Below, one piece after another: positions 47,394 through 64,000 of a stretch of DNA of 64,000 bases (positions within the stretch are counted from its first letter, which is position 1; every line of letters begins with the position of its first letter). Origin of the DNA: Caldicellulosiruptor naganoensis. GTDB lineage: Bacteria > Bacillota > Thermoanaerobacteria > Caldicellulosiruptorales > Caldicellulosiruptoraceae. Under the pieces are notes generated by a model that was given only the letters and a program-made list of their open reading frames with translations, searched no databases and was not told where the DNA came from. Made by a program: the position numbers and the translations under genes. The stretch covers positions 1,767,001-1,831,000 of the forward strand of contig NZ_CP113864.1 of the NCBI RefSeq assembly GCF_026914285.1, in the 5' to 3' direction.

Positions 47394-48068
47394 TTAAAGA
47401 TTTAACAAATACCCATTCTTCTTCAGCCAGTCTTCATGTTTCTTGTAATCAGGCATGAGCAGTTTTACCTTTGTCCAAAAATTTTTTCCATGATTTTTCT
47501 CTTCAAGATGGACAAGCTCATGAACAACCACATAGTCTATTACAGACAGTGGTGCCATAATAAGCCGCCAAGAAAAGTTCAAGTTACCCTTTGCAAAACA
47601 AGAACCCCATCTTCTCTGTGCATTTGTTATATTTACTTTGTTGTATTTAAAACCTCTTTTTTGAGCCCACCAGTTTACTCTCTCAAGAATCTTCTCATAG
47701 GCAGCTTTTTTATACCAATCTATGAATACATTCTTTGCTTCTGGCAAAGCACTTCTTGAGAGATAAAACCCATTTTCGAATTTGAGCGGGACATCTTGGT
47801 TTTCAACTATGTGCAGTTTATAATACCTGCCAAGGTATAAAAATCCCTCTCCGCTGACAAATTCTTTTGGCAAGGTTTTGGGATCTCTTGCTTCTATCTC
47901 TTTCTTTCTCTTGTCAATCCACTTTCTATGTTTTTGAATAACATCCCATATTGTTTTTTCATCCACATTGATCGGAGCTTTGACTATGAGTGTGCTATTT
48001 TCTGTCATTTGCAAAGCTATGGTTTTTCTATTTGAGCGTATGATTTTTTCAATTTTAATGTCTAGCAT
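47394..48068 (-). CDS. YgjP/DUF45-type zinc metallopeptidase
   Basis: 224 residues from the ATG at 48068, which has AGGGAGTGAT upstream; the frame extends to 48098 inside hsdR. The zinc motif HELVHLEEKNHGKNF (HExxH with third His) lies near residue 178, together with WGSCFAKGNLNFSWRL, characteristic of the SprT-like/YgjP M48-related family. It starts five bases after the hsdR stop. Such genes often follow hsdR in type I restriction loci; their role there is not established. Confidence 0.9.
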   Translation of the reverse strand: MLDIKIEKIIRSNRKTIALQMTENSTLIVKAPINVDEKTIWDVIQKHRKWIDKRKKEIEARDPKTLPKEFVSGEGFLYLGRYYKLHIVENQDVPLKFENGFYLSRSALPEAKNVFIDWYKKAAYEKILERVNWWAQKRGFKYNKVNITNAQRRWGSCFAKGNLNFSWRLIMAPLSVIDYVVVHELVHLEEKNHGKNFWTKVKLLMPDYKKHEDWLKKNGYLLNL

Positions 48069-48072
48069 AATA

Positions 48073-51000
48073 TCACTCCCTAAAATGATGATAAGCAAGT
48101 TCTAAAAGTCTTTGAGCAATTTCATTTCTCTTGTTGAATATATTTTGACCGGAAGAATTAGAGATATAAACTGCAGTTTCTGTTTTAACTCCATCATGGT
48201 TGTTTTCATACATAGCAGGTGATATTTTTTCAAGCAAGTGCGAAATTATAAAGAATTTCAACTTTCTTTGTTTTGTTGCACTTTCCCAAAAATCAACCGC
48301 TTGAACCTCTCTGCTTATTAATTCTACCAAATCTCTTGTTGTGCTAACAAGAAAATCTATTTCGCTCTCAGAAAGTTCACTTACAGGTTTTTTCCCAAAT
48401 ATTTGGTCTTTTAATAACCCAAAAAATGGCATTTCTTTCTTAGGGTCAAGCCCATAAGTCTGTTCTGCTTCTCTTCCTTTTTTCAACTCTTCTCTTAATT
48501 TTTCTAATTCAATACATTGAGCGTCCCAATTTTCTTTGTATTCTTGAAGTAACCTCTTTAGTCTATCTGAAAACCTCTCATAAAGTTCTGAGTCTTCTTC
48601 CCAATGCTCATCAATATACTCAATTATCGCATGCTGTAGCTCTTGAGCTTTTGCCTTGCTTGATTTTTTGTGAAGTTTTTCAAGGAATTTGTCTTCAAAA
48701 AGTGGAGTAGGTGGTACTTTGGGATCTATTCCCTGAGAAATCAGGTATTCTTCCACAATTTCTCTTATTTTATTGCTTGCATCTTTTATACTCAGCTTGT
48801 CATCTCTGTATCTATTTCGCGCGGATTCTTTTATGAAGGCAAGAATTTTCAAGTCAGTAAGGTATCTTAGTGCTGCAGGGTCAGGAAGAACCTCGTCCAT
48901 ACAACGGTTAAACCATCTCACAAGAGCTATAAATTCATCTCTGACCTGCTCATCAACAAGAATGTCAATACATTCATCTACATTCTGGCGCCAGTTTCTA
49001 ATGCCATATTTTTCAAAAAATTCTTCAATAAGATTGTGAACATACTTTAGCTCATCAATGCTTTTTGCTTTGTTCTTTACAACCTCTGAAATTTCCTCAA
49101 TATCTTCATCTGCGTAAATAGCCAGGGCCTCTTTTAAATGTTTCAAAACACCTACATAATCTACAACAAAACCACAAGACTTATTTTTATAAACTCTGTT
49201 TACTCTTGCAATAGCTTGCAGCAAGTTATGTCCTTTTATCACATTATCAAGATACATAACCTGCTCAACAGGTGCATCAAAACCAGTTATTAGCATATTT
49301 TGAACAACCAAAATGCCAACATTGCCACTGATACCATTTTCATCCACTTTGTCAAATGGAAGTTTAAAACTTTTGATTATCCTTTCGTGCTCATTGGGGT
49401 CAGTATAAGGACGATACTCAGGTGGGTCATTCTGAGCTCCTGAAATAACCACACCAACCTCTAACTTTTTCAATGTTTCTAAATCTATTTTTGAGTTATT
49501 TTCTTTTTCTAATTCAGAAATTTTTTCTTTGAGAGCCTCTTCAAGTGCTTTATATCTTATTGCAGCAAGACGTGACACTGTAACAACTTGAGCTTTAAAT
49601 CCATTTGGGAATATATGAGTTATATAGTGCTCTATCATATCTCTGGCTTTGTCGCGGATTACCTCTTCAGCTTCAAGATATGCTCTCCATGTGAATCTTC
49701 CCATTATCATTCTTTTTGTATCTTTATCAGCGTCTTTGAAAACATCTTCAAACTTTGCATTTGCTGCCTCTTCATCGGTAAGCTCTGCGCTATGGACTCT
49801 TCCTTCATATACAATCTCAACAGTCACACCATCTTCAACTGCCTGCTTTATGCTGTACTTGTCTATGTAATCGCCAAATGTCATCTCGGTCTTTTCTATA
49901 GGTGTACCTGTAAATGCTATTTTTGTTGCATTTGGAAGAGCTTTTCTTAAATTTGCACCCAGCAGTTTGTATTGTGTTCTGTGTGCTTCATCTATCATTA
50001 TCAGAATATTAGGTGATGTATTAAGGACAGGAAATTCTCCTTTTAATTCCCTCTCTTGAAATTTATGAACCATAGCCATGACAAGTTCGGGTGTGTCAGT
50101 TTTTAAAAGTTCTTTAAGTTCCTGAATGCTTCTTGCTAACTTAACAGTAAATCCAACACTTCTTGATGTTTCATTTAACTGCTTTTCAAGATCTCTTCTA
50201 TCTGTGACAAAAACAACTTTGTAGTTTCCAAACTCAGGATTGTGATAAAGCTCTCGAACCATAAACATCATTGTCAAAGATTTACCGGAGCCTTGTGTAT
50301 GCCAAACAATTCCTCCTCTTGCGTCTGGTGTTTTGCCTTCTTTTAGCCTTTTTATCATCTTCTTTACTGCTCTAAATTGCTGATATCTTGCAACAACCTT
50401 TATCATTTTGCTCTTTGGATCTTCTTTAAAGATGGTGAATGTGTGAAGCAGATCAAGAAGGTTTTCTTTTGAAAGCATGCCATGAATCAAAACCTGCTGG
50501 CTTGTTACATTTCCATGTGGATTTACGCTTGACAGCGAAAAAGGATAAGGGTCTTTCCACTCAACAAAGTGCTCATACTCTGAGGTTATTGTGCCATACT
50601 TTGCAACCTGATTCGAGGTAGCAACCATAAAGAGGTTATACCAGAAAAGCTTTTCATTTCCCTCAATTGTGCCACGTCTGTTACAATAGCGCATAAGCTG
50701 AGTAATTGCTTCAGAAATTGGGTCAGCAACTGCTGGAGATTTGCATTCAACCACCACAAGAGGCAAACCATTTACAAAAAGAACTATATCGGGAATAATA
50801 TGTTTTTCAGTCCCCGTTATATTCACTTTAAACTGTGATATAGCAATGAATGAATTATTGTCCGGATTTTTAAAATCAATAAACTTAACAGTTGGGCTTT
50901 TTTCTCCTGTTTTTCTATTTTCAGAAACTGAGGTGTTCTCTAAAAGCAAGTCGTGGATTTCTTTATTTGCCTCTAAAAGAGAGTTTGACTGTGGTGTTGT

Positions 51001-51279
51001 AATTCTTCGAACAACTTCACTTATTTGGTCATCTTCTATCCATGGGTTTATTCTCTTTAAAGACTCCCTTAAAACTCCCTCAAGGATTACTTCTTTAAAG
51101 CTTTCTCTAAATTTTTGGCTTTCACCATATTCAGCTTCTAATGAAGAAGTGAACGATATTATTTCTTTTATATCCTCAGGGTTATCTTTGTTCTGCTTAT
51201 AAATCTTCCATCCAAGCCTTTGAAGCTGAAAGAGGAATAGATTTTCAACATAATGTTCTTCGTCAAGTTTGTAAAACAT
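48073..51279 (-). CDS. hsdR: Type I restriction enzyme, HsdR subunit
   Basis: 1068 residues: N-terminal nuclease domain with IPDIVLFVNGLPLVVVECKS near residue 163 (PD-(D/E)xK site), and an SF2 motor with Walker A HTQGSGKSLTMMFM near 329 and DEAHRTQYK near 427. SFKLPFDK and the QAIARVNR motif VI region lie near 690, followed by a C-terminal helical domain. It looks intact. Restriction would need HsdM, whose gene here is a remnant. It is in one operon with hsdS, mntA and hepT upstream. Confidence 0.95.
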   Translation of the reverse strand: MFYKLDEEHYVENLFLFQLQRLGWKIYKQNKDNPEDIKEIISFTSSLEAEYGESQKFRESFKEVILEGVLRESLKRINPWIEDDQISEVVRRITTPQSNSLLEANKEIHDLLLENTSVSENRKTGEKSPTVKFIDFKNPDNNSFIAISQFKVNITGTEKHIIPDIVLFVNGLPLVVVECKSPAVADPISEAITQLMRYCNRRGTIEGNEKLFWYNLFMVATSNQVAKYGTITSEYEHFVEWKDPYPFSLSSVNPHGNVTSQQVLIHGMLSKENLLDLLHTFTIFKEDPKSKMIKVVARYQQFRAVKKMIKRLKEGKTPDARGGIVWHTQGSGKSLTMMFMVRELYHNPEFGNYKVVFVTDRRDLEKQLNETSRSVGFTVKLARSIQELKELLKTDTPELVMAMVHKFQERELKGEFPVLNTSPNILIMIDEAHRTQYKLLGANLRKALPNATKIAFTGTPIEKTEMTFGDYIDKYSIKQAVEDGVTVEIVYEGRVHSAELTDEEAANAKFEDVFKDADKDTKRMIMGRFTWRAYLEAEEVIRDKARDMIEHYITHIFPNGFKAQVVTVSRLAAIRYKALEEALKEKISELEKENNSKIDLETLKKLEVGVVISGAQNDPPEYRPYTDPNEHERIIKSFKLPFDKVDENGISGNVGILVVQNMLITGFDAPVEQVMYLDNVIKGHNLLQAIARVNRVYKNKSCGFVVDYVGVLKHLKEALAIYADEDIEEISEVVKNKAKSIDELKYVHNLIEEFFEKYGIRNWRQNVDECIDILVDEQVRDEFIALVRWFNRCMDEVLPDPAALRYLTDLKILAFIKESARNRYRDDKLSIKDASNKIREIVEEYLISQGIDPKVPPTPLFEDKFLEKLHKKSSKAKAQELQHAIIEYIDEHWEEDSELYERFSDRLKRLLQEYKENWDAQCIELEKLREELKKGREAEQTYGLDPKKEMPFFGLLKDQIFGKKPVSELSESEIDFLVSTTRDLVELISREVQAVDFWESATKQRKLKFFIISHLLEKISPAMYENNHDGVKTETAVYISNSSGQNIFNKRNEIAQRLLELAYHHFRE

Positions 51280-51281
51280 TT

Positions 51282-51629
51282 TTAACTCTCCTTTTCAAGA
51301 AGGAATTTTACTGCCTTTTCTAGTTCCGGCAGCTTCTTTTTGATAACCTCCCAGATTATTTCAGCATCTATTCCGAAATACTCATGAATAAGAATATCTC
51401 TTAAACCAGCGATTTTCTTCCATTCTATTGGATAAAGTTCTCTTTTATCATCCGGAATCTGCTTAACAGCTTCACCAATATTTTCAAGAGCTTTTAAAAC
51501 TGCATAAAAAACCAGTTCATTTTCAACAAAATTGTTGTATTTTTCAATCCCTTGTGTAAACTTTTTAATGCGGTCAATCTCTTCAATGATGTCTTCAAGA
51601 ATTACTTTTAGTATACGCTTTTTAGACAT
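51282..51629 (-). CDS. hepT: HepT-like HEPN toxin (DUF86)
   Basis: 115 residues, all-helical HEPN fold with the RNase motif R-x4-H-x-Y as [11 protein letters not shown] near residue 80. Partner of the MntA-like protein encoded just upstream, with which it overlaps by eight bases. HepT toxins are tRNA-directed RNases; MntA silences HepT by adding AMP to the Tyr of this motif in studied pairs. It ends two bases before the hsdR start codon. Confidence 0.92.
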
Positions 51630-51912
51630 ATACTGCTTCCTCCATTATGAAAGGTTTTAGACGTGGATTTATAGCTGATTTAATCACAAGGTCAACCTTT
51701 TTACCAAAAAGTTCTTCAAGGTAGAATTTCAAATTCATATAATTATCGAATGTTTTGTAACCCTCTTTAAAATCAACAATGATATCTACATCACTATCTT
51801 TTCTTTGTTCGCCTCTTGCATAGGAGCCAAAGATAGCAATTTCAATTACTCCGAACTTTTCCACTAAATAATTTTTACGTTCTTGTAGAATTACTTGTAT
51901 ATCACTGTTCAT
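51622..51912 (-). CDS. mntA: MntA-like nucleotidyltransferase antitoxin
   Basis: 96 residues, minimal nucleotidyltransferase. The motif GS-x10-DxD is exact: [15 protein letters not shown] near residue 29, followed by the third acidic residue region DLVIKSAI. It overlaps the hsdS end by four bases and hepT by eight. It probably AMPylates and neutralises the HEPN partner. Confidence 0.92.
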
Positions 51913-53279
51913 TTTTCTTCCTCCTCAATAAGGTGGTTTACCCTGACTTTGCCTGTTAGCAAATCTTCCATTAAGCCTTTTTTGATTCTTTCAAGTTTTT
52001 CCTTATAGGCTTGCTCTTTTTCTATGGCTTCATCTATTTGAGATAAAATTGAAGCTATGCGTTGCTGTTCGGAGAGGTGGGGAAGGGAAATTATAAATTC
52101 TCTTATTTCTTCTAAATGTAAATTAGTCACTGATAACTGTTTAGCCCTTAATATTATTTGTTTTTTAACCCAATCTGAATCAAGAAAATATTTAAGAAAT
52201 ATATTAAACACTTTTTCGTGTTTAGGTTTAATAAGACACAAACTTACAAATATGCTAAATCCCCATTTCCAGTCTACCAATTTAGATATTCCAATTGTAC
52301 CATTCTTAGAATACAAAATATCTCCATACTCAGGCAAACATCTTTTCGCAAGAAATTTATCCTCTTCATATTTAATTTTCATAACGCTATCTAAATCTAT
52401 ATTTTGCTGTTGGATATCAATAACTCTAAGAAACGGGACCCCGTCCTCAGTATACGTAGGTGTATAATGTGTACCATCTATTATTTTATTACTTACATCT
52501 AAAAGCTTTACCACTTCCCACTCCTCTGGAATCCTCCCAAGCGGTGAATCCTTGAATTTATCAATATTCTCATCTCTCAACCTCCACCTCTCACTTTCAC
52601 CCTCACCCTCATTTACCACTCCTTTAGTAAGCAAATCTTGCATCAAACCTTGCTTTATGCGTTTGTATTTTTCTATAATGGCGTCAGTCTTCTCAATTGC
52701 ACTGTCAATTGTCTCAAGTATTTCAGCGATTTTGCGTTGTTCGGGGAGAGGAGTCCTTGGTACTAAAAAATTTTTAATAAAAGTTGACGATAAACCGGGT
52801 TGAGCAGATCCTGTTATTCTATCTGTTATTTGTTTTTGACCAAAACGTGAAAAAAGCCAGTAAAATAAATATTGTTGAACGAATAATTTTTTGCTCCTGA
52901 GAATAAAAAGGTGTTCATTAATAGCTATATCCTTATAAAACTTCTTTTTTAACATTGCAACTTTTCCAGTGTTGGCACCATCCTTATTTATAAGTATATC
53001 ATTTTCCTCTGTTTTTCCCTTTGTCATAATTTTAAAAAATTTCTCAGGGATATATTTGGCATTTACATCTGAAAAATTTATCCTACCATCTAAAGTTATA
53101 TGTTCTCCCCCTAAACTTGGTATTCCTTCATCTGAAGCACCACCTTTTGGCCTTAGACCCGATATTAAAACACAATCTCTTTCAAGAGACACTATTGTCC
53201 ATTCTTTTGGAAACTCTGCATTATTAGCCACTTTCACATTACCTCCATTTGACCCCTTTATGACCCCATCGTGAGCCAT
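51909..53279 (-). CDS. hsdS: Type I restriction-modification specificity subunit HsdS
   Basis: 456 residues with two target-recognition domains and two coiled-coil spacers: PLPEQRKIAEILETIDSAIEK near 180 ends the first, HLSEQQRIASILSQIDEAIEK near 415 the second. It sets the split DNA target of the methylase and nuclease. The first codons (MAHDGVIKGSNGGN) come from a short direct repeat. A GTG at about 53234 (VANNAEFPKEW) with GGAGGT upstream may be the true start. Confidence 0.93.
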   Translation of the reverse strand: MAHDGVIKGSNGGNVKVANNAEFPKEWTIVSLERDCVLISGLRPKGGASDEGIPSLGGEHITLDGRINFSDVNAKYIPEKFFKIMTKGKTEENDILINKDGANTGKVAMLKKKFYKDIAINEHLFILRSKKLFVQQYLFYWLFSRFGQKQITDRITGSAQPGLSSTFIKNFLVPRTPLPEQRKIAEILETIDSAIEKTDAIIEKYKRIKQGLMQDLLTKGVVNEGEGESERWRLRDENIDKFKDSPLGRIPEEWEVVKLLDVSNKIIDGTHYTPTYTEDGVPFLRVIDIQQQNIDLDSVMKIKYEEDKFLAKRCLPEYGDILYSKNGTIGISKLVDWKWGFSIFVSLCLIKPKHEKVFNIFLKYFLDSDWVKKQIILRAKQLSVTNLHLEEIREFIISLPHLSEQQRIASILSQIDEAIEKEQAYKEKLERIKKGLMEDLLTGKVRVNHLIEEEEK

Positions 53280-53291
53280 TTGACCCCTTTA
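53245..53291. repeat. Short direct repeat at the start of hsdS
   Basis: The 16-mer CCATTTGACCCCTTTA occurs at 53245-53260 and 53276-53291, unit 31 bases, just where hsdS begins. It may come from local duplication, and it obscures the hsdS start. Confidence 0.75.
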
Positions 53292-54251
53292 GAGATCTTT
53301 TAATGAATAGTAAGTTCCCTTTCCTGTTATTCCTACTTTTTTAAGTACATCTTTTTTAACAAGTTCTTCAAAATCTCTACTTGCAGTCTTTTTTGAAACT
53401 TTGTTGATCTCTTGATATTCCTTATTCGTGATTCTTCCTTTCTCCCTTACATACATAACTGCCTTTATCTGCCTTTCATTTAACCCAAGCTTGGCTAAAT
53501 ACTCTTCTGTGTATATGTCTTTATAAAATTCGACCACAAAACCGCCTTCTTCTTTAAACTCAGGTTCTGGCAGTCCTGCTTCCCTGCAAAGTTCAACCAT
53601 TCTTTTTGTACCACTTCCCCATTTTTCAATCAATCCTGCGAGGAAAAATACATAAGCAATATGCCTGTTGCGTGGTATTGATCCATGATCTTGTTTTAGC
53701 ATCTCAATTGTTATTTATTCTGGAAGCTTACCCGGATTGAAAAACCAAATTTTATTATCATAAATCTTTATTTGAATGTCCGCAAGGCTTAAATAATCCC
53801 TATGAATTAATGCATTTATTACTGCCTCTCTTATAGCTTCAAGAGGATAATCCCATATATCTTCTCTTTCTATCCCTTTTATTTCAAATCGAACATTCAA
53901 ATGTTTTTTAATAGCTTCCATTAATCCATCAAGCTGTTTGAAAAGATTTCCACTAACATCAATGGTATCAAGTATGATGGTTGGAGTTTTAAATCTTCCA
54001 ACACGGGCACCTGCACCGTGGATATACTTTTGAGGTTTTTTACCAAAAAGCAACAATCCTGCATTTGTAAGTTTATCCTCTTTTACAAGTTCAAGGTTTT
54101 TGAGAATCTTTTCGATGGAATCTTCTTCGGATATTTCGGGCAATCTTTTCTTTGCCATCCTTTTAAACCTTTCTATTGTTTCGATGTCTACTTCGTCAAC
54201 GCCTGCCTCAGAAGGTAATGACTCCCACGAAATTTGTTTAGACTCTCTCAT
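53289..54251 (-). pseudogene. AlbA_2/ATP-binding-type transcriptional regulator, truncated and split
   Basis: A 54251-53715 segment (ESLPSEAGVDEVDIETIERF, DKLTNAGLLLFGKKPQKY, EAIREAVINALIHRDY with the HATPase-type Asn/His) ends at TAA 53717-53715. The same frame then continues, restarting at ATG 53702, with the rest of the protein (IPRNRHIAYVFFLAGLIEKW and a winged-helix end QIKAVMYVREKGRITNKEYQ). The N-terminal AlbA_2 domain normally preceding RESKQISWESLPSEAG is absent. These regulators often sit in type I restriction loci. The stop and the missing domain suggest it is dead. Confidence 0.8.
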
Positions 54252-54605
54252 AATATCCGAGTTCCTCCAAAAATTTGCTTAACTTATTGACAGTTTCTTC
54301 TCACTCTTTTAAATGTTCATTTAATGAAACACGATACTTGTCCCATAGTTTTTCAAAAATTTTTACAAGTTCTTTCTTTTCTGCATTTAGATAATTATTC
54401 ATTTAATTGCCAATAAATTCAAAGAACTTTTCAAGTAATAGCTCCTTTGTTTCCTACTCGGTCAATGATTCAATCTTTTCTTCTATTTTATTTTCAAGTT
54501 CTCTTCGCTTTTTAGTTATTTTACTTCCCATCTTTTTAATTTCCTTTTCTTCTTGAGAAATCTTATCAAGCAACTCTTCCCATTTTTTGTTTCTATTCTT
54601 GCCTC
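54238..54605 (-). pseudogene. C-terminal remnant of hsdM with three in-frame stops
   Basis: One frame reads LLDKISQEEKEIKKMGSKIT, then KRRELENKIEEKIESLTE, TAG, ETKELLLEKFFEFIGN, TAA, NNYLNAEKKELVKIFEKLWD, KYRVSLNEHLKE, TGA, EETVNKLSKFLEELGYY. The LWDKYRVSL and FLEELGY ending is characteristic of type I HsdM C-termini. The catalytic NPPF and AdoMet-binding parts are gone. The three stop codons are TAG, TAA and TGA, one of each, with no frameshift. Confidence 0.8.
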
Positions 54606-54817
54606 GTCACTGTCCTTTGAATTTAAATCTTTCACCTACTCATTCATAAAAGGCTGCTAAAATAAAATTGTTTCTAGTGTATTTATTAAAAGCTGAAGTG
54701 GTTTACTGCAATAGAAAAATACACCATTCTTTTAAACACCAAAGAATATGGTAATCCAACAAATTTGAATATGTACTGCTCTTAAGATAGTTCCTTTGAA
54801 GCAAGTATTTAGAACAT

Positions 54818-55345
54818 TTGATAAATTCCATTATGCTATCAGAACAAAGAATTTACATTGATAAAAATCAAAATGATAAATGTAATGGATTTTATGAGCG
54901 TTTGCTTACTACCCAAGTACGTAGTCTTGAACTTTCAATTCCTCATACAAAAGTTAGCAAATTCTGTCATCATGCCCTAATACAGCCTTATAAAAGAGAT
55001 GACTCATCTTAAACCGACTTGCTTATGTCCTTAGTTGCTAATGTTCACTGTGAAAGTTTGCTACTCCAATCTTCTTCAACATTTCAAATTGCCTTACTCT
55101 GACGGTGAAATTAACAACAAAAAAACGAACCTCAACTCTTCACACACTGTGATTTGCCCCAAAAGCCTTTGTACTGATAAATAGATAGCTCCTATTGTGA
55201 AATCAAGGATAATTCTAAGGCCCAACAAACTATTTGGTACGTTGTTGTCAATATCGATTTGGAAGGCAAAAAATCTTCGCATTTAGACCTTCTTTGCCAA
55301 AGCAAACAAACATAATTCGATGAAAGCTTTTGAAGATTTAATTAA
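54818..55345 (+). pseudogene. IS256 (mutator)-family transposase remnant
   Basis: Plus-strand fragments: DKCNGFYERLLTTQVRSLEL, then FCHHALIQPYKRDDSS, match the N-terminal half of IS256 transposases (NGxYER, PxxR, PYKR). After several stops TIWYVVVNIDLEGKK corresponds to the conserved YVAIGIDLEGKK-like strand with the catalytic Asp. The downstream part is missing. Stretches before it (54606-54817) hold nothing I can identify. Confidence 0.75.
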
Positions 55346-56879
55346 CTGCTAATCAAGTAATCTTTAAACTCTTTTTGCAATTGTGGAGGTAACACATTTT
55401 TGAGGCAACCCTGAATCTTTCGTTGTTTATCTTCATCAAATGTAAATATTCTATCAATATATAACACTTTCTCCGCGAATAACTTTAATATCGAAAATTC
55501 ACAATCTGAGATATTATTGTAAACAACCTTGTTTTTATTGAAAACTGCAATAGGATCTTTCCCTCTTTCGAATATCGTTACCTTTAATGGTTTTTCATCT
55601 ATTAATATATCTTCTGGTTTTACCCCTGCTTTTTCTGCTAACTTTCTTTTGTTTTCTTCATTTCTAAAATATGATACTATAGAATTATTAAATTTTTCTT
55701 CAAATTCTTCCTTATTATTGCATAGTTCTTCCACAACATATACTATTTTCAAAGGTTTTCTTTCATTGATAAGTTTTGCATACATATTTACTGTATAATC
55801 AGGCAAATTACAATCAAGAACGTTTTCGACAATTTTAAAGAAAAAGTGGTCAGTAAAATTCAAAAATTTGACAGGTTCAGTTTTTAACAAATTTTTTAAC
55901 TCTTCAAAACTATATATTTCTATCGTCTTCGGTAACTCACCATTAATTTTCATTTCAAGAAGACGATAATAAAAATCTGACGCCATAAATTCCCATGCAT
56001 GAACTTTTCTATTAAAAACCACTTGAGAGTAAGCTGCATATCTTGAAAGAAAAAATTGTTCAACTACCCTGATGCCTGGTATATTTACCCCATATTTTCC
56101 TTCCTCATTATATCTAATTTCTTCTAACAATTTATCAAGATCAAATATTCCCGAGCAAACGCCAGAAAAAACAGCATCTCTTAACAAATAATCAATTCTA
56201 TCTGCATCTAACTGAGAATGTATTAAATTTCTCGTCAATGTCGAGATTTGATCTTTTGGTTCTACATCACCTATTCCACTCGTTTCACCTTTAATTCCCC
56301 CAACAATTCGAGCTATATCCAAGCCTAATTTTTTAAGTTCTTCCCCTATGGAAGTAAAGAAAATTACATACTCTGCCATTTCTTCATGTAATTTAGTGTC
56401 ACTCTGGAACGTCTTAATTTTATCCCTATTCTTCAAATGATTAATATTGTCTTTTACAGATGTGGTAACTATCTCTTTTTCTATATTTTCATCTTTTTTT
56501 AATTCGAATTTTTCATAAAATTTTTTCAAAGCAGTTTCCAGTGTATGAGAAAGCGGAAAATGACCAATATCATGCAGCAAGGCACTCATTTCAATATAGA
56601 GCTTATCTTTTTCATCAAGGTTATATACACCAGAATAATTTTTTCTTGGGAATTAATTATTTTCTTTACTATGTTGTATACACCTATTGAATGAGAAAAC
56701 CTTGTATGAAGAGCGTCAGGAAAAACATAACTTGTCAACCCCATCTGTCGTATACTGTGGAGTCGCAAAAAATATGGATTATTTATTATATTTTCATAGA
56801 TCTCTTTTTCAAATTTTATATAGCCATACAAGTTGTCATATATGCTTATTACGTTTTCTTTAAATTTTTCCATTTTCAT
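55342..56879 (-). pseudogene. HD-domain phosphohydrolase (YwfO/COG1078 type), frameshifted at an A6 tract
   Basis: The first frame (56879-56586) has LRQ..YVFPDALHTRFSHSIG, the first His of the HD site. It runs into a wrong C-terminus after NSQEK. A -1 shift at the six-A tract (56639-56644) gives NYSGVYNLDEKDKLYIEMSA and then continues with LLHDIGHFPLSHTLE, the HD pair, to the natural end at 55342. The joined protein would be about 510 residues, the length of COG1078 dGTPase-like proteins. The start overlaps the YwgA-like gene by 20 bases. It may be a mutation, a phase-variable tract or slippage-corrected; the sequence cannot decide. Confidence 0.85.
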
Positions 56880-57393
56880 CGATCCCCTGAACTCTTTTGT
56901 AAAATTCTTCTATGGAAAAACATATTTGCTCTTCATTAAATCTTTTCTTATTTACTTTTATCGCTCTTTTTAAATCTTCCTTGCTGTCTATTTGACCTCT
57001 CTTATATAAATAATACATCGATGCTAAAAGCTCATACCAGTCAGCCTTAGTCAAATTTAAGTGTTCGAGCTGATCACCTTCCATTTCAAAAAATTCCTTA
57101 ACTTTTTTAATAAACTTTTCCCCTTTTTCTGTAAATCGGACATTTTCTGCTTCCTTTTTAACTTCCTCTAAATTCGTTAAAATCTCGTTAAAAACTTGTC
57201 GGGACAATAACGGTGAATAGGGTCCCGCAAGATACCAGCTAAAGTTGTATAATTCTTTACCAATAAGCTCTTGTAACAAATAGATTGCTTTTTGAATTAA
57301 CAATCTTGAATTGTAATCCATTTCATATTTTTCCAACACCTCAGGCCCTAATAACGACACAATTATTTTATATAAAGTAGGTGTGCTAAACAT
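56860..57393 (-). CDS. YwgA/Panacea-like protein
   Basis: 177 residues. IQKAIYLLQELIGKELYNFSW followed by YLAGPYSPLLSRQVFNEI is the pattern of YwgA and SocA/Panacea-type proteins (hydrophobic helix, aromatic-rich turn, GPYS). In Bacillus, ywgA is beside the HD-protein gene ywfO, as here. Panacea domains act as antitoxins or chaperone adaptors elsewhere. Start ATG with GGAGGTGATATA upstream. It lies 167 bases downstream of brxA. Confidence 0.7.
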   Translation of the reverse strand: MFSTPTLYKIIVSLLGPEVLEKYEMDYNSRLLIQKAIYLLQELIGKELYNFSWYLAGPYSPLLSRQVFNEILTNLEEVKKEAENVRFTEKGEKFIKKVKEFFEMEGDQLEHLNLTKADWYELLASMYYLYKRGQIDSKEDLKRAIKVNKKRFNEEQICFSIEEFYKRVQGIDENGKI

Positions 57394-57560: not shown

Positions 57561-58274
57561 TTACAACTTATTTACAGCAACTGTTATTACAGAATCAATT
57601 TTATTTACATTCAAACTATCTACATTCATCAGTTCATTTAAGTTAACGCTTATGTTGAACGGAAAAAAAGAATATAAATTTTCAATTTCATCGATGTCAA
57701 TATAACTTCTCCCATTTGCCTTTAAATAACAAGCAATCAAAAATGCTTTTATATCTTTATTAGTAATTGTCACTTTTGTACCTGGTTCATATACACCAGA
57801 ATTTTTACTAACAATCAGTTCCCAATCCTTGAGAGTTTTTATTATTTTATCAATTGAAAATCTTAGAGTTTCTCTTTCGCCCCACTTTTCAAATATTCTC
57901 TTCTTTAGATATTCCAGCTTAAATCTATTTTCGAGATAAAAAGCTTTTCCAATAATAAAGACAACATCATTGAATATTGGATAAGTAACCATCAGCATAC
58001 CAAAATGCAACGCAATTTTTTCGTCTGGGTTCGCTATTTTAAATAAATCAACTCCCCTATCTCTTAAACACATATTTTTTTCTGGGGCATTTACCCATGT
58101 GCTCATTAATATTGCTAATATTTTTCTTATTGTATCCTCACTTTTATAATAGTTCGACACAATTCTCTTTAATACATCCCTGATTTCATTCTTCTCTTTT
58201 CCTTTGATAAGTTCTTCAACAGTTATGTTCAACCATTCAACTCGAACCGGTTTTAAAAAGCCTATTGCCTTCAC
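57561..58274 (-). CDS. brxA: BrxA-like (DUF1819) protein of a BREX type 3 operon
   Basis: 237 residues, GTG start after AGAAAGGATG. It has the DUF1819-like pattern ILAILMSTWVNAPEKN, PDEKIALHFGMLMVTYPIFN and RIFEKWGERETLRFSIDKI. BrxA is a small DNA-binding helical protein needed for BREX. As last gene after pglZ its place matches the type 3 order pglX-brxHII-pglZ-brxA. Family assignment rests on motif resemblance and position. Confidence 0.7.
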   Translation of the reverse strand: MKAIGFLKPVRVEWLNITVEELIKGKEKNEIRDVLKRIVSNYYKSEDTIRKILAILMSTWVNAPEKNMCLRDRGVDLFKIANPDEKIALHFGMLMVTYPIFNDVVFIIGKAFYLENRFKLEYLKKRIFEKWGERETLRFSIDKIIKTLKDWELIVSKNSGVYEPGTKVTITNKDIKAFLIACYLKANGRSYIDIDEIENLYSFFPFNISVNLNELMNVDSLNVNKIDSVITVAVNKL

Positions 58275-58296
58275 AAAATTTCATCCTTTCTGCTAC

Positions 58297-60186
58297 TTAT
58301 AATGACGGCATTATCCTAACAAAAGGTACAATCACTTCTTCTATTGATATTCCCCCATGAGTCAAAATTGTCTTTCCCTTATCATGAAATGATAGATTAT
58401 CATCAGATACAACATAATTATACTCATCAGGCAGCCCAATTCCGCCCCATTTGATGATTTTAATTCCTGGCGGATATTCTATTGGAATATCCTTAGGATA
58501 TATTTTTACCCTATTAGAAAGAGTGTCAATATACACTCCTTCTCTAACATTACCTTGTCCAACTGTTAATACATTGCCGTGATCCGAAGCTATAAATACT
58601 TCATAATTTTTTTTGAAAAGTTCCTCTAAAAATTTTTGTAAATACCCTTCAGACATATAAAAGTTTATCTGATTTTGTAATCCCTTGTAATTAAAAATTT
58701 GCCCATGGACAAACTCATCTATCGCATCTACTACAACGCAAAGCACTTTGTAATCTTCTTCTAAAGCACGCCTTAAGTTCTCCTCTTCAAATGTTTTTAT
58801 ACTCCTAATAAAAGCTATTTCTTTCTCATTGTAACCACTATTCACAAAAAATCTTTTAAAATGTTTCTCATCATAGTTTGTTGAAAACATAGTAGTTTTA
58901 AATCTCAAAGGAGGCTCTGCTGAAAATATAGATTGTCTTGAAATAGAAGTTATCGTGGGTATCCAGGCAAAACAAGATTTCTTTTCAATTCTTAAATCCA
59001 TTTTTTCTAAATATTCTTTAATTATTGTCCAATTAAATTCAGACATACCATCAACTAAAATAAAAGCCATTTTATTTTTATTTTCCTTTTTCAAAAGAGT
59101 AATTATATATGGCTGGATATGATGCACCATAATAGGTCCATTTGAATATGATAAATAGGAAAGTTTACCATAATTTTCAAACAGCCAGTCTTTAAACTTT
59201 ACATTGATTTCTTGACTCAATGTCTCGTATTCATCATTATTCGAAATACAGCACAAATTTATTATGCCGCCAAATATTTCTGCTACTTCAAACCAGTCTT
59301 TATAACTTTTAATTTCACATAACAATTTCTTAAGTCTACTTCTTAAATTTTCGTATTCCTCTCCTTGAGATTTTAGTTTAAACACCAAACCTAATTGTTT
59401 TATTGGTAGGCTACTATTTAATTCAGTTGGCTTAGTCAGTTTTATAATGTTGTCCCTAATTAAATCGTCTAAATAGACGCTAATTTCGGGGTCCAAAAAG
59501 TCAATATAAGTTTCTTTATCCATTTTATCATATTTATCTTTAACTACAAATTTATCAAACTCTGTCTGGAAAAATTTAAAAAACTTACTCTTCGAGTCTA
59601 AAATACAACTAATCTCAGTGGGTAGAAATACTAACTTATTCTTTATGAAATCTGAGAAAATTTGAGGAAGTTCAGTTCCTTTAAAGTAAAGCCTCAGCAA
59701 CTGTTTTATTAAGTCTTGAAGATTGTTTATAACCGATATATCAATATTATAAACATACCTCAAAATAAAATTACATGTTTCCTCATAGTTCAAAACTCTG
59801 TTTAAACTTTTCATCTTCTGGTATATAACGTCGAAATATTCAACATCAATCTGCTTTATAACATCAACATCAAGGTTAAAAAATAAATCTTTTAATCTTA
59901 TCCAAACCTCATGATAATCTTGCTTAACATCCCAGGGAAGATAAACTTTCTCAGTTACAATTAAAACAACCTTTTTATTCATATCTCTTATTTTTGTTTC
60001 ATAAAAAATCCTATACTCCTCAATGTCCTTGTAAATGAATACTTCATAACCTTCATCGAAAATTTTAGATATCATATTAAAATTAAATAAAAGTTTGTCA
60101 AAATCATAAACCAGCAAGAAATCATACAAACTTGAATTTATTTTTTCCCATATTACATCCTCTATCATGCTTATATCACTCCACAT
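58297..60186 (-). CDS. pglZ: PglZ-domain protein (BREX phosphatase-like core)
   Basis: 629 residues. The alkaline-phosphatase-superfamily part is C-terminal: MAFILVDGMSEFNWTIIKEY (first metal Asp) near 375, PTITSISRQSIFSAEPPL near 410, FIASDHGNVLTVGQG (Asp-His) near 535 and LTHGGISIEEVIVPF near 605. The N-terminal part of about 350 residues is helical. The ORF start at 60186 overlaps the helicase gene by 11 bases. The ATG at 60168 (MIEDVIWEK) with GTGGAG is also likely. Confidence 0.9.
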   Translation of the reverse strand: MWSDISMIEDVIWEKINSSLYDFLLVYDFDKLLFNFNMISKIFDEGYEVFIYKDIEEYRIFYETKIRDMNKKVVLIVTEKVYLPWDVKQDYHEVWIRLKDLFFNLDVDVIKQIDVEYFDVIYQKMKSLNRVLNYEETCNFILRYVYNIDISVINNLQDLIKQLLRLYFKGTELPQIFSDFIKNKLVFLPTEISCILDSKSKFFKFFQTEFDKFVVKDKYDKMDKETYIDFLDPEISVYLDDLIRDNIIKLTKPTELNSSLPIKQLGLVFKLKSQGEEYENLRSRLKKLLCEIKSYKDWFEVAEIFGGIINLCCISNNDEYETLSQEINVKFKDWLFENYGKLSYLSYSNGPIMVHHIQPYIITLLKKENKNKMAFILVDGMSEFNWTIIKEYLEKMDLRIEKKSCFAWIPTITSISRQSIFSAEPPLRFKTTMFSTNYDEKHFKRFFVNSGYNEKEIAFIRSIKTFEEENLRRALEEDYKVLCVVVDAIDEFVHGQIFNYKGLQNQINFYMSEGYLQKFLEELFKKNYEVFIASDHGNVLTVGQGNVREGVYIDTLSNRVKIYPKDIPIEYPPGIKIIKWGGIGLPDEYNYVVSDDNLSFHDKGKTILTHGGISIEEVIVPFVRIMPSL

Positions 60187-62839
60187 ACGCCATATACAGT
60201 AATTTTAAGTAAGGTATTATCTCCTGAAGTGCGGATAATCTCTCAAATACAGCGGTTTCTTCCTTCTCAATCTGTTGTAATCTATGCCTTTTTATATTTT
60301 CAATGCCTAAACTCAGTGCAGCTTCTTTTTTCAAAGAAAATGCTATCTTAAATTTTTCCATTTCTTTGTTTATCTGCTTTATATATTCTTTTCTCATTTC
60401 ACTAAAATGGTTATATGCTAATTCAATAGCTGTAATTTTTGTCTTTTTCAATAAAGTTTCATCTATATCAATATCTTGAGAAAACTCAAAAGATTCTTTT
60501 AATAAAATATCCCATACCGTTTTAGATGTGCCAGGTCTATAGTCACCTTCTAAGTTAATAAATACTGGAAATACTTTGCAATATCGTTGAGTGTTTTTTA
60601 TGCCAACTTCCCATAATGACCAATAACCTTTTTCATAAATTGTGTTATTTTCCAGTTTAATAACTGGTATTCTTTTTGAAATAGGATATTCCGGAATATT
60701 TAATAATTCCTTTATTTTATCATTTTCTAAACTAAGAGTTTCCCCGGAAATATTTAAAATATCTGCTTGATTACCTAATGAGATTTCTTTATATAGGTAC
60801 ATCTTTCGTATATACTCGTCAACTTTGTCTGAAGGCAACTCTGCAAGCAGATTCACACTTAGAACTTTTTCATCCTTAAGAATATCTTTCATTTTATGTA
60901 AAATTTCTGTTTTTTCTCTTATCTTATTCTCAATGGAATAAACATATCTTTCCAAATTAGAAGGATTTGATATGGACTTAATATATACTTCTGTAAAATC
61001 TATGCCCGCCTCAAAACTATCAAGTATATCACCCATTTTGTCAACTCCAAATTCCTCAAATATTACCTTTAATTTTTCTTCTAAAATTTGTCTCACTCTA
61101 TTCTCAACAGTGTCTTCAAGGACAAAATTAAACACAAACACATCTTTTTGTTGTCCAATTCTATCAACACGTCCTATTCTTTGTTCTATCTTCATAGGAT
61201 TCCACGGCATATCATAATTTATGACTATATTACAAAACTGGAGATTTATCCCCTCTCCCCCTGCATCAGTTGAAATTAAAATATCTGCATTTTCTCTAAA
61301 TTTTGACAATATTTCTTTTCTTTCTTCTATATTCATAGAGCCATTTAATATAACAACATTATACTCCTGACTTGTTAAAATATCATACAAATATTCTTGA
61401 GTTTCAATAAACTCAGTAAATATCAAAAACTTTGAATCCTTTTGCTTCATCCTGATTTTAAAGATTAAATCCAACAATGTTTCCGCTTTTGCATCTATAA
61501 ATTGTGCCTCTGCTTGGTTTGCAACTGAGAGTATATCTTTTAGTTGCGTAATCTCTTTTTTGACATTAAAACTTACAGTTTGAAGTAAGGTCTGTTGCGC
61601 ATATTCCATAGCAGCATCATAAATTTCCTCAAAATCAATATCTTTATTCAGGAACTCTTGATTTTCTAAAATTTTAATTCGCCTTTCAATATAATCTTTT
61701 ATTGCTCTTGTGCTACTGGTTACAAGCCTTTGCATCAAAACAAGCAAAAATCCAATGCAATTTTTTTTCTCTTTGATTGCCTGATTATAACCCCTTGCAA
61801 CATATTCAGTTACTTTTTCATATAACAATTTTTGTAAACTATGTTTCTCTTGCCATTTAATGCTTACAAGTTTTGTATATCTATTTTTAAAAAGCTTATT
61901 TCCATTAAAGTCAATAGCTTCTCTTTTTTCAGTTCTTATGATAAAAGGTGCGACTTGTTCCTTAGTTATAGCTTTTTCTGTTGGAAAAGCATCTTGGTCT
62001 ATGAATCTCATTAATCTTAAAAAAGAATCACTTTTTCCTTGATGAGGTGTAGCTGTTAACAACAAGAGATAGGGACTTGCCACAGCCAATGCCTTACCGA
62101 GCTTATATCTTGCCACATTAGAAGTTGCTCCAGCAAGTCTGTGGGCCTCGTCAATCATAATCAAATCCCAATTGGCATTAATCAGATTTAAAAATTTCTG
62201 AGTATTAACTTCTTCTATTTTCTCAGCTGTCCAACCAACTCTGCCTTCAATTGGCTTTACTGAATCATGTGAGGATATAACTTGATCAAAAATGGTCCAG
62301 ATATTTTCTTTATCGTATACTCTCTTTAAAACATCCAAATCTTGGGGTAGGATTATTTTGAAGTCCTCAGAAAATTTTTCTTTCATCTCCTCCTGCCACT
62401 GCAATATAAGCCCTTTTGGAGCTAAGATAAGAATTCTTTTTATCAATCCTCTTAGTTTCAATTCCTTCATTATTAGTCCTGCTTCAATAGTTTTACCAAG
62501 ACCTACCTCATCAGCTAAAACAAATCTCACTTTATCGCTGGATAAAGCTCTTTTCAAAGCATAAATTTGGTGAGGTAATGGCAGAATACTGCCACTTAAG
62601 GGTGACAGTATTCCGCCAGAGATTATATTTTTCAACTTAGCAGCATTCAAAATATACTTGAATTCATACACATTAAAATTTACGCTCTCTTCTATGTCTT
62701 TATCTGTTACTTCGTAAACCACATTAGAAGATGTATCTAAAACCACATATATTTTATAACCCCATAATTCTTTTATATCCAAAAGTTTTGCATACTTTTT
62801 TAAGCTTTTTACATAAACAAAATGAACTTTCTCAATCAT
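60176..62839 (-). CDS. BrxHII-type SNF2-like helicase
   Basis: 887 residues: motif I VLADEVGLGKTIEAGLIM near 109, Ia PKGLILQWQEEM, motif II MIDEAHRLAG near 228, motif III LLLTATPHQGKSDSFLRLM near 258, motif IV-VI DILISTDAGGEGINLQF near 530 and QRIGRVDRIGQQKDVFVF near 560. The QxxxRTEKREAIDFNG-like segment (FIIRTEKREAIDFNG) near 303 is typical of the DrmD/BrxHII group. It lies between the methylase and pglZ with only three bases to the first, so it is cotranslated. Confidence 0.9.
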   Translation of the reverse strand: MIEKVHFVYVKSLKKYAKLLDIKELWGYKIYVVLDTSSNVVYEVTDKDIEESVNFNVYEFKYILNAAKLKNIISGGILSPLSGSILPLPHQIYALKRALSSDKVRFVLADEVGLGKTIEAGLIMKELKLRGLIKRILILAPKGLILQWQEEMKEKFSEDFKIILPQDLDVLKRVYDKENIWTIFDQVISSHDSVKPIEGRVGWTAEKIEEVNTQKFLNLINANWDLIMIDEAHRLAGATSNVARYKLGKALAVASPYLLLLTATPHQGKSDSFLRLMRFIDQDAFPTEKAITKEQVAPFIIRTEKREAIDFNGNKLFKNRYTKLVSIKWQEKHSLQKLLYEKVTEYVARGYNQAIKEKKNCIGFLLVLMQRLVTSSTRAIKDYIERRIKILENQEFLNKDIDFEEIYDAAMEYAQQTLLQTVSFNVKKEITQLKDILSVANQAEAQFIDAKAETLLDLIFKIRMKQKDSKFLIFTEFIETQEYLYDILTSQEYNVVILNGSMNIEERKEILSKFRENADILISTDAGGEGINLQFCNIVINYDMPWNPMKIEQRIGRVDRIGQQKDVFVFNFVLEDTVENRVRQILEEKLKVIFEEFGVDKMGDILDSFEAGIDFTEVYIKSISNPSNLERYVYSIENKIREKTEILHKMKDILKDEKVLSVNLLAELPSDKVDEYIRKMYLYKEISLGNQADILNISGETLSLENDKIKELLNIPEYPISKRIPVIKLENNTIYEKGYWSLWEVGIKNTQRYCKVFPVFINLEGDYRPGTSKTVWDILLKESFEFSQDIDIDETLLKKTKITAIELAYNHFSEMRKEYIKQINKEMEKFKIAFSLKKEAALSLGIENIKRHRLQQIEKEETAVFERLSALQEIIPYLKLLYMAYVE

Positions 62840-62842
62840 TTC

Positions 62843-64000
62843 TTATTCACCTAATCTTGTCAGAGCATTGTCATAATACATCAAAAGAACTGAATCTTCT
62901 TGTAAAACTGACTCTGGAAGTTTTTCAGCCATCTTTACAATTGTTTTATAATCCTTTTTCTGCCATAAATCCTTAAATCCAGCTCTTATTGCTTCTGTTC
63001 TGAAAACTTTCAACTTGCCTTTGACATTTAAGTATCCTTCAAATTCTCTCAAAAGATTTTTAGTTCTCAGCTTTTCAAGGTCTGATTGCTTATTAACATC
63101 AGGCACATACCATTTACCATTTTCATCTTGTAAGAAGTTTTCTTCAAGTAGTTGTAAAAGCTCTGGTAACTTTTCATGCTTAAACTCGTGCTTAGCTTTC
63201 AAAAACTTAGGCTGTAGCTCTTGATAAGTCTGTGGCTGCTTTTCAAGCTCATTTCTTATCCATTGAATTGCACTCTTCTCATCAACAATAACAAATGAAA
63301 CCTGTTCTTTTAACTCGAGCCTGTATCTTTTTTCTTCATATTTCGGTATTTGGCTTGGAAGAAAGTACATTCCATCCCTTTCTATAAATCTTTCTTCTAA
63401 GCCCTTATAAAACTCGGCTGCTCCCATTGGAATGCTCAGACCTCTTTGAACATGATAAGCAACCATTGCATCGTATAACAAATAAGCTTGCCTTTCCGGG
63501 ATATATTCTAAAACTCCATTATTTTCAACCACAACAGGAAGCTTCTCAAGATGCTGTCTTACAAATTCCCAAACACCTTCTTCTGTTCCCACTTCTAAAT
63601 AGAACTTCTTTTCAAAGCTTTCTTTTGGTTTATACGCAGAGATTATTAAATCCTGTTTTGTGGCTGTAGTTGTCGTGACTTGTTTAAAACTGCCTTGTTT
63701 TTTATCGAGTGCTCTTACATTAGCAATAACAAATCCTGCTCTTAACATTGCTTCTTGAATAGCATTCCATACAGCATTTTTTGTATTGTGAAACTCAACT
63801 GTTATCCATCTACCAGGTTTAAGTATTCTATACATTTCTTTAAAGCACTGTTCCATTAATTCTTGGTACTCAGAAAGACCTTTTCCCTGCACTTTGTTTA
63901 TTATTGCCTCTGTCTTATTGTTGGTAAATACTCTCAGCCATGCCTCCCAAATAAAGTTAAGTTCTGAATATATGAGATTATCTCCATAGGGAGGATCGGT
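62843..64000 (-). CDS. PglX-like adenine-specific DNA methylase (DUF1156 type), C-terminal part
   Basis: Reading frame open to the right edge; about 385 C-terminal residues are visible. The catalytic motif TDPPYGDN begins at the last bases of the window, followed by IYSELNFIWEAWLRVF. RILKPGRWITVEFHNTKN is the next conserved strand. A long C-terminal specificity region follows. In BREX type 3 this is PglXI, and brxF and brxC would precede it outside the window. It ends three bases before the helicase start. Confidence 0.85.
   Translation of the reverse strand, partial: TDPPYGDNLIYSELNFIWEAWLRVFTNNKTEAIINKVQGKGLSEYQELMEQCFKEMYRILKPGRWITVEFHNTKNAVWNAIQEAMLRAGFVIANVRALDKKQGSFKQVTTTTATKQDLIISAYKPKESFEKKFYLEVGTEEGVWEFVRQHLEKLPVVVENNGVLEYIPERQAYLLYDAMVAYHVQRGLSIPMGAAEFYKGLEERFIERDGMYFLPSQIPKYEEKRYRLELKEQVSFVIVDEKSAIQWIRNELEKQPQTYQELQPKFLKAKHEFKHEKLPELLQLLEENFLQDENGKWYVPDVNKQSDLEKLRTKNLLREFEGYLNVKGKLKVFRTEAIRAGFKDLWQKKDYKTIVKMAEKLPESVLQEDSVLLMYYDNALTRLGE

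Follow-up and report, generated by a model that had tools for sequence, protein, structure and literature searches.

The closest described systems to the operon analyzed here are the BREX anti-phage systems. Type 1 comprises BrxA, BrxB, BrxC, PglX, PglZ, and BrxL; in it BrxB sits on the ATP site of BrxC and PglZ is a nuclease (PMC13326643, PMC12205998), and in the crystal structure of the BrxC-BrxB-PglZ complex an arginine of BrxB closes the BrxC ATP site, thereby shutting out another BrxC (PMC13326643). Type 3, as defined in PMC12839542, is less explored than the other BREX types. According to the same source, its TRD lies in an insert of ∼250 residues that sits between core strands 2 and 3 and bears a four-cysteine motif, BrxB lacks Walker motifs, and BrxF, the counterpart of BrxB, is labelled an inactive STAND protein. 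Our search of the literature on BREX in Caldicellulosiruptor found nothing of use.

The window (the whole stretch of 64,000 bases that was analyzed, bases 1767001-1831000 of a single-contig Caldicellulosiruptor genome of 2,494,610 bases) ends inside a minus-strand operon, and we took 20 kb around that edge (L002; L002 position + 55999 gives the window scale) from the same contig. On the basis of gene content, order, and profile matches, we consider the following six genes almost certain to form an intact anti-phage operon of BREX type 3:

57561-58274, minus strand: brxA, 237 aa, GTG start (open reading frame; PADLOC BrxA, E = 7e-101)
58297-60186, minus strand: pglZ of type 3, 629 aa (PADLOC PglZ, E = 3e-281; NF033449; PF08665)
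60176-62839, minus strand: brxHII, a Swi2/Snf2-type helicase, 887 aa (PADLOC BrxHI/BrxHII, E = 0; PF00176 and PF00271)
62843-65431 (L002:6844-9432), minus strand: pglXI methyltransferase, 862 aa, TTG start (PADLOC PglXI, E = 0); the 3' part, 385 aa from 62843 to 64000, lies inside the window, its frame open at the edge
65428-69120 (L002:9429-13121), minus strand, outside the window: brxC, 1230 aa (PADLOC BrxC, E = 0)
69127-69588 (L002:13128-13589), minus strand, outside the window: brxF, from a proposed AUU start

The system itself is ordinary and belongs to a known kind. It has the six genes of BREX type 3 in the type 3 order (brxF-brxC-pglXI-brxHII-pglZ-brxA) on one strand, and its BrxF and PglZ match type-3-specific profiles: PglZ, the single PglZ-domain match in the whole genome, scores 727 bits against NCBIfam NF033449 BREX_PglZ_3 (cut-off 250), and BrxF scores 134 bits against NF033453 "BREX_3_BrxF" (cut-off 50). 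BrxC is a DUF6079/BrxC-PglY ATPase whose sole Pfam match is PF19557 (1385 bits). BrxHII, whose closest solved relative is RapA, reaches 1087 bits against PADLOC BrxHI/BrxHII and carries the Pfam domains SNF2-rel_dom and Helicase_C; its top PADLOC model is labelled "BrxHI," and the Snf2 domains agree with BrxHII. BrxA gave no Pfam match at 1e-3 and was identified by PADLOC. Taken together, PADLOC, Pfam, and NCBIfam assign all six genes to BREX. The genes are tightly packed, with overlaps of 4 bases between brxC and pglXI and 11 bases between brxHII and pglZ and a gap of 6 bases from the end of brxF to brxC. The order brxF-brxC-pglXI-brxHII-pglZ(-brxA) recurs in unrelated genomes; among relatives, some place brxHII after brxA and others carry extra genes between brxC and pglXI.

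The original prediction had described a partial DPPY methylase, an SNF2-like helicase, PglZ, and a DUF1819-like protein in one tightly packed minus-strand operon matching the second half of the type 3 order, and had proposed a complete system if brxF and brxC lay beyond position 64000. Open reading frames and profiles bear out the four genes: the partial methylase is the 3' end of pglXI, which starts at 65431, the helicase is brxHII, and the DUF1819-like protein is BrxA. Extending the contig past 64000 completed the order, with the ATPase and BrxF directly upstream of pglXI, and the two outcomes named as contrary to the proposal, a missing ATPase upstream and a better fit to another system, were not seen.

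Relative to BREX type 1, the operon has BrxA, BrxC, a PglX-type methylase, and PglZ in common, as well as a BrxB-like fold in the model of a BrxF relative, but it lacks BrxL and has the BrxHII helicase instead, and its methylase is of the XI form, with a TRD that is central rather than C-terminal (PMC12839542). There is no defining difference from type 3; what does differ is a brxF without a standard start codon and without an intact Walker A loop.

A comparison with the BREX operon of a sister species (G004) gave dN/dS values of 0.09 to 0.22 across the six genes, i.e., purifying selection on all of them; brxA is 93.7% identical between the two, with a dN/dS of 0.13. In G004 the C terminus of brxHII (L034:11975-14500) is 46 codons shorter than that of the gene in the window and is possibly truncated, with a gap of 126 bases between this gene and pglZ.

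In frame 0 of brxF, the first codon of the ATG, GTG, or TTG type is an internal TTG that lies 32 codons past an ATT and falls behind the P-loop region. Both species conserve the arrangement AGGAGG, 8 bases, ATT (69586-69602; L002:13587-13603), and BrxF read from the ATT agrees in length with the family profile. An AUU behind a perfect Shine-Dalgarno sequence is the best reading and the likely start of brxF. Nonstandard brxF starts do not extend to the whole nearest clade, as had been considered: Caloramator australicus has a UUG behind a Shine-Dalgarno sequence, and most other relatives have a standard start. Upstream of brxF, TTTACT-N18-TATAAT (69668-69697) is a likely promoter, and an overlapping inverted repeat, ATCAAC-N18-GTTGAT, is a possible repressor site; together they lie at 69658-69697, and both are conserved between the two species.

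The operon could be complete in sequence and still be silent or partly disabled, with brxF untranslated for want of a start codon and the system methylating at most, without restriction. The missing ATG, GTG, or TTG ahead of the conserved BrxF N terminus in both species and the shorter brxHII in the other one would fit such a state, which we nevertheless judge unlikely given the perfect AGGAGG 8 nt ahead of the ATT in both species, a dN/dS of 0.18 for brxF, and the selection acting on all six genes. Without a standard start codon and with an eroded Walker A in brxF, full activity or expression is not assured. The operon would even less plausibly be BREX-related (BR, DUF499-centred) or DISARM-like: a methylase and a helicase by themselves would suit several systems, the helicase also matches DISARM DrmD (E = 1e-95 to 1e-107) and DpdE, and PglXI matches generic type II methylases and DUF1156_MTase, but the DrmD score of 360 bits falls well under the curated cut-off of 610, BrxA is present, and the matches of BrxF and PglZ_3 above the cut-offs of BREX-3-specific models, together with an ATPase that is DUF6079 and not DUF499, refute this assignment.

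Within BREX type 3, the relatives of BrxF qualify its published description. Used alone as a query, BrxF found no relatives, and a BrxF alignment was too divergent to serve as one; we gathered 78 relatives (L050-L129) through the BrxC N terminus. The Walker A motif [GA]x4GK[ST] is intact in the BrxF of 30 of them; scored on the tree, 30 are intact and 46 are not (n = 76, with the two sister-genome copies included and two rows unscored). A Walker B aspartate is present in 28/28 loop-intact BrxF proteins versus 15/44 loop-less ones, among rows that are related, so that we attach no probability to the difference. On the BrxC tree the loop trait needs at least 5 changes; for the loop-less group, branches with strong support require 3. 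The tree itself cannot separate gain from loss, and we favor loss because an eight-residue motif and its Walker B partner are unlikely to arise repeatedly; loss on several occasions is probable, one of them in this lineage, where the loop is eroded to GNPNQTSK (ENPSQTSK in the sister species). NCBIfam already names the BrxF family "P-loop-containing," so that this finding qualifies the recent "inactive STAND" label rather than being wholly new.

The structure predicted for a loop-intact relative of this genome's BrxF (pLDDT 91.5) aligned best, among 998 chains, with a 190-residue chain of 9zll, a BrxC-BrxB-PglZ complex (Z of 11.1, 3.3 Å over 144 residues; next row, Z of 9.8), with the caveat that AAA+-like proteins resemble one another broadly. 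This chain is most likely BrxB, because the other partners in the complex are BrxC 1-551 and PglZ 1-98 (PMC13326643). By analogy with BrxB, BrxF would be expected to cap BrxC and to carry PglZ, and an intact loop would allow BrxF itself to bind nucleotide.

PglXI contains a hypervariable segment, nearly all of it beyond position 64000. The protein has the insert TRD, whose 4-Cys motif (CPSC at residue 237 and CPFC at 264) falls between motif I (residue 113) and DPPY (residue 479). Compared with the sister species it is 97% identical outside residues ∼336-475 and 37% identical inside, and the corresponding DNA (about 64027-64293; L002:8028-8293) gives no blastn alignment with G004 even as both flanks align. 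In 6/6 close, mutually distinct pairs, a low-identity run spans about residues 379-465 or more and stops just ahead of DPPY. Because this genome and G004 share a conserved cysteine region (237-267), the variation falls in the later portion of the insert. This hypervariable segment is probably the target-recognition segment, swapped between strains, and we favor exchange over very fast divergence because the edges of the segment are sharp, the two not being formally separated. The predicted PglXI model is poor (pLDDT 70, pTM 0.38), with Foldseek matches that confirm the methylase core only, and for this reason we left the segment unmapped on the fold.

Joining these two lines, we propose with about even confidence that BrxF, rather than being simply an inactive STAND protein, began as a nucleotide-binding AAA+ subunit whose ATP site was lost several times, giving type 3 systems with either an ATP-switch or an ATP-blind BrxF, and that specificity resides in an exchangeable PglXI cassette (∼340-475, core 373-466) that would rewrite the methylation motif with the rest of the operon almost constant.

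The operon occurs in 2 of the 13 genomes of the order, this one and G004, at the same place, a slot bounded by a nicotinate phosphoribosyltransferase gene and a YgjP-like peptidase gene. These two markers are 21.7 kb apart in this genome and 13.8 kb apart in G004, and in G001, an empty site, the two genes nearly abut (L158, about 1140-1175), the matched stretches being separated by about 14 bases, which identifies the slot as a defence-island integration spot. At this slot G003 and G009 carry a type I restriction-modification (R-M) system with a long open hsdM, a RecG/AlbA-like gene, hsdS, and hsdR (the phosphoribosyltransferase gene beside it is gone in G009), and G002, G005, G006, G007, and G011 carry type I R-M in pieces or split versions. 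The type I R-M of sister species is, like BREX, a methylation-based self/non-self defence, whereas here hsdM is lost, leaving hsdR and hsdS as orphans. The decayed system, a neighbor of the BREX operon and not part of it, occupies 47394-54650 on the minus strand:

47394-48098, minus strand: YgjP-like peptidase gene
48073-51279, minus strand: hsdR, seemingly intact
51282-51629, minus strand: HepT
51909-53279, minus strand: hsdS, seemingly intact
53289-54251, minus strand: RecG/AlbA-like fragments of a truncated gene
about 54241-54624, minus strand: C-terminal remnant of hsdM (residues 687-814), interrupted by four stops

The DNA of hsdR, hsdS, and HepT is about 98 to 99% identical to that of G003 along most of each gene, and the genome holds no other copy of hsdM. 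The marker genes are also closer to those of R-M-bearing G003 than to those of BREX-bearing G004 (97 versus 93% and 97 versus 85%), a kinship consistent with the BREX operon having moved horizontally among members of the genus. BREX may have replaced hsdM, or hsdM may already have been decaying beforehand.

Next to brxA, a gene for a 177-aa winged-helix-like protein (56860-57393, minus strand) with weak similarity to the C terminus of DarG is followed by one for an HD-domain phosphohydrolase, frameshifted near 56620-56650 (pair, 55342-57393, minus strand). Homologues of the two genes occur together in the other genomes found via the 177-aa protein, a conserved two-gene module that is possibly a defence or toxin-antitoxin pair. 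We considered and rejected the pair as a part of BREX, as it is absent from the BREX island of the sister species and occurs elsewhere alone. The island is flanked by cobalt/nickel transport genes, and past these lies a transposase-like gene (459 aa, L002:17775-19154).

For the mode of action, our analysis itself provides the gene content and order, the open frames, the purifying selection, and the BrxB-like fold of the BrxF relative, and every biochemical step that follows is drawn from homology and the literature. PglXI would methylate adenine at a short motif picked by its central target-recognition segment and so mark the host genome. Unmarked phage DNA would be engaged by a complex of the AAA+ ATPase BrxC, BrxF, and PglZ, in which BrxF may take the role of type 1 BrxB, docked on the AAA+ domain of BrxC and carrying PglZ. 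BrxHII would unwind or remodel the DNA, PglZ, a predicted metal-dependent nuclease, would act on the unmarked phage DNA, and BrxA would bind DNA.

The specificity cassette, the loss of the BrxF P-loop, the slot in common with type I R-M, and the likely AUU start are modest by-products of this analysis. They document one slot occupied by type I R-M and by BREX in sister species, confine the part of PglXI that probably sets specificity to about 100 to 140 residues, and show an ATP-binding loop retained in many BrxF proteins, against a general label of inactive NTPase. The locus offers an apparently intact type 3 operon from a probably thermophilic host.
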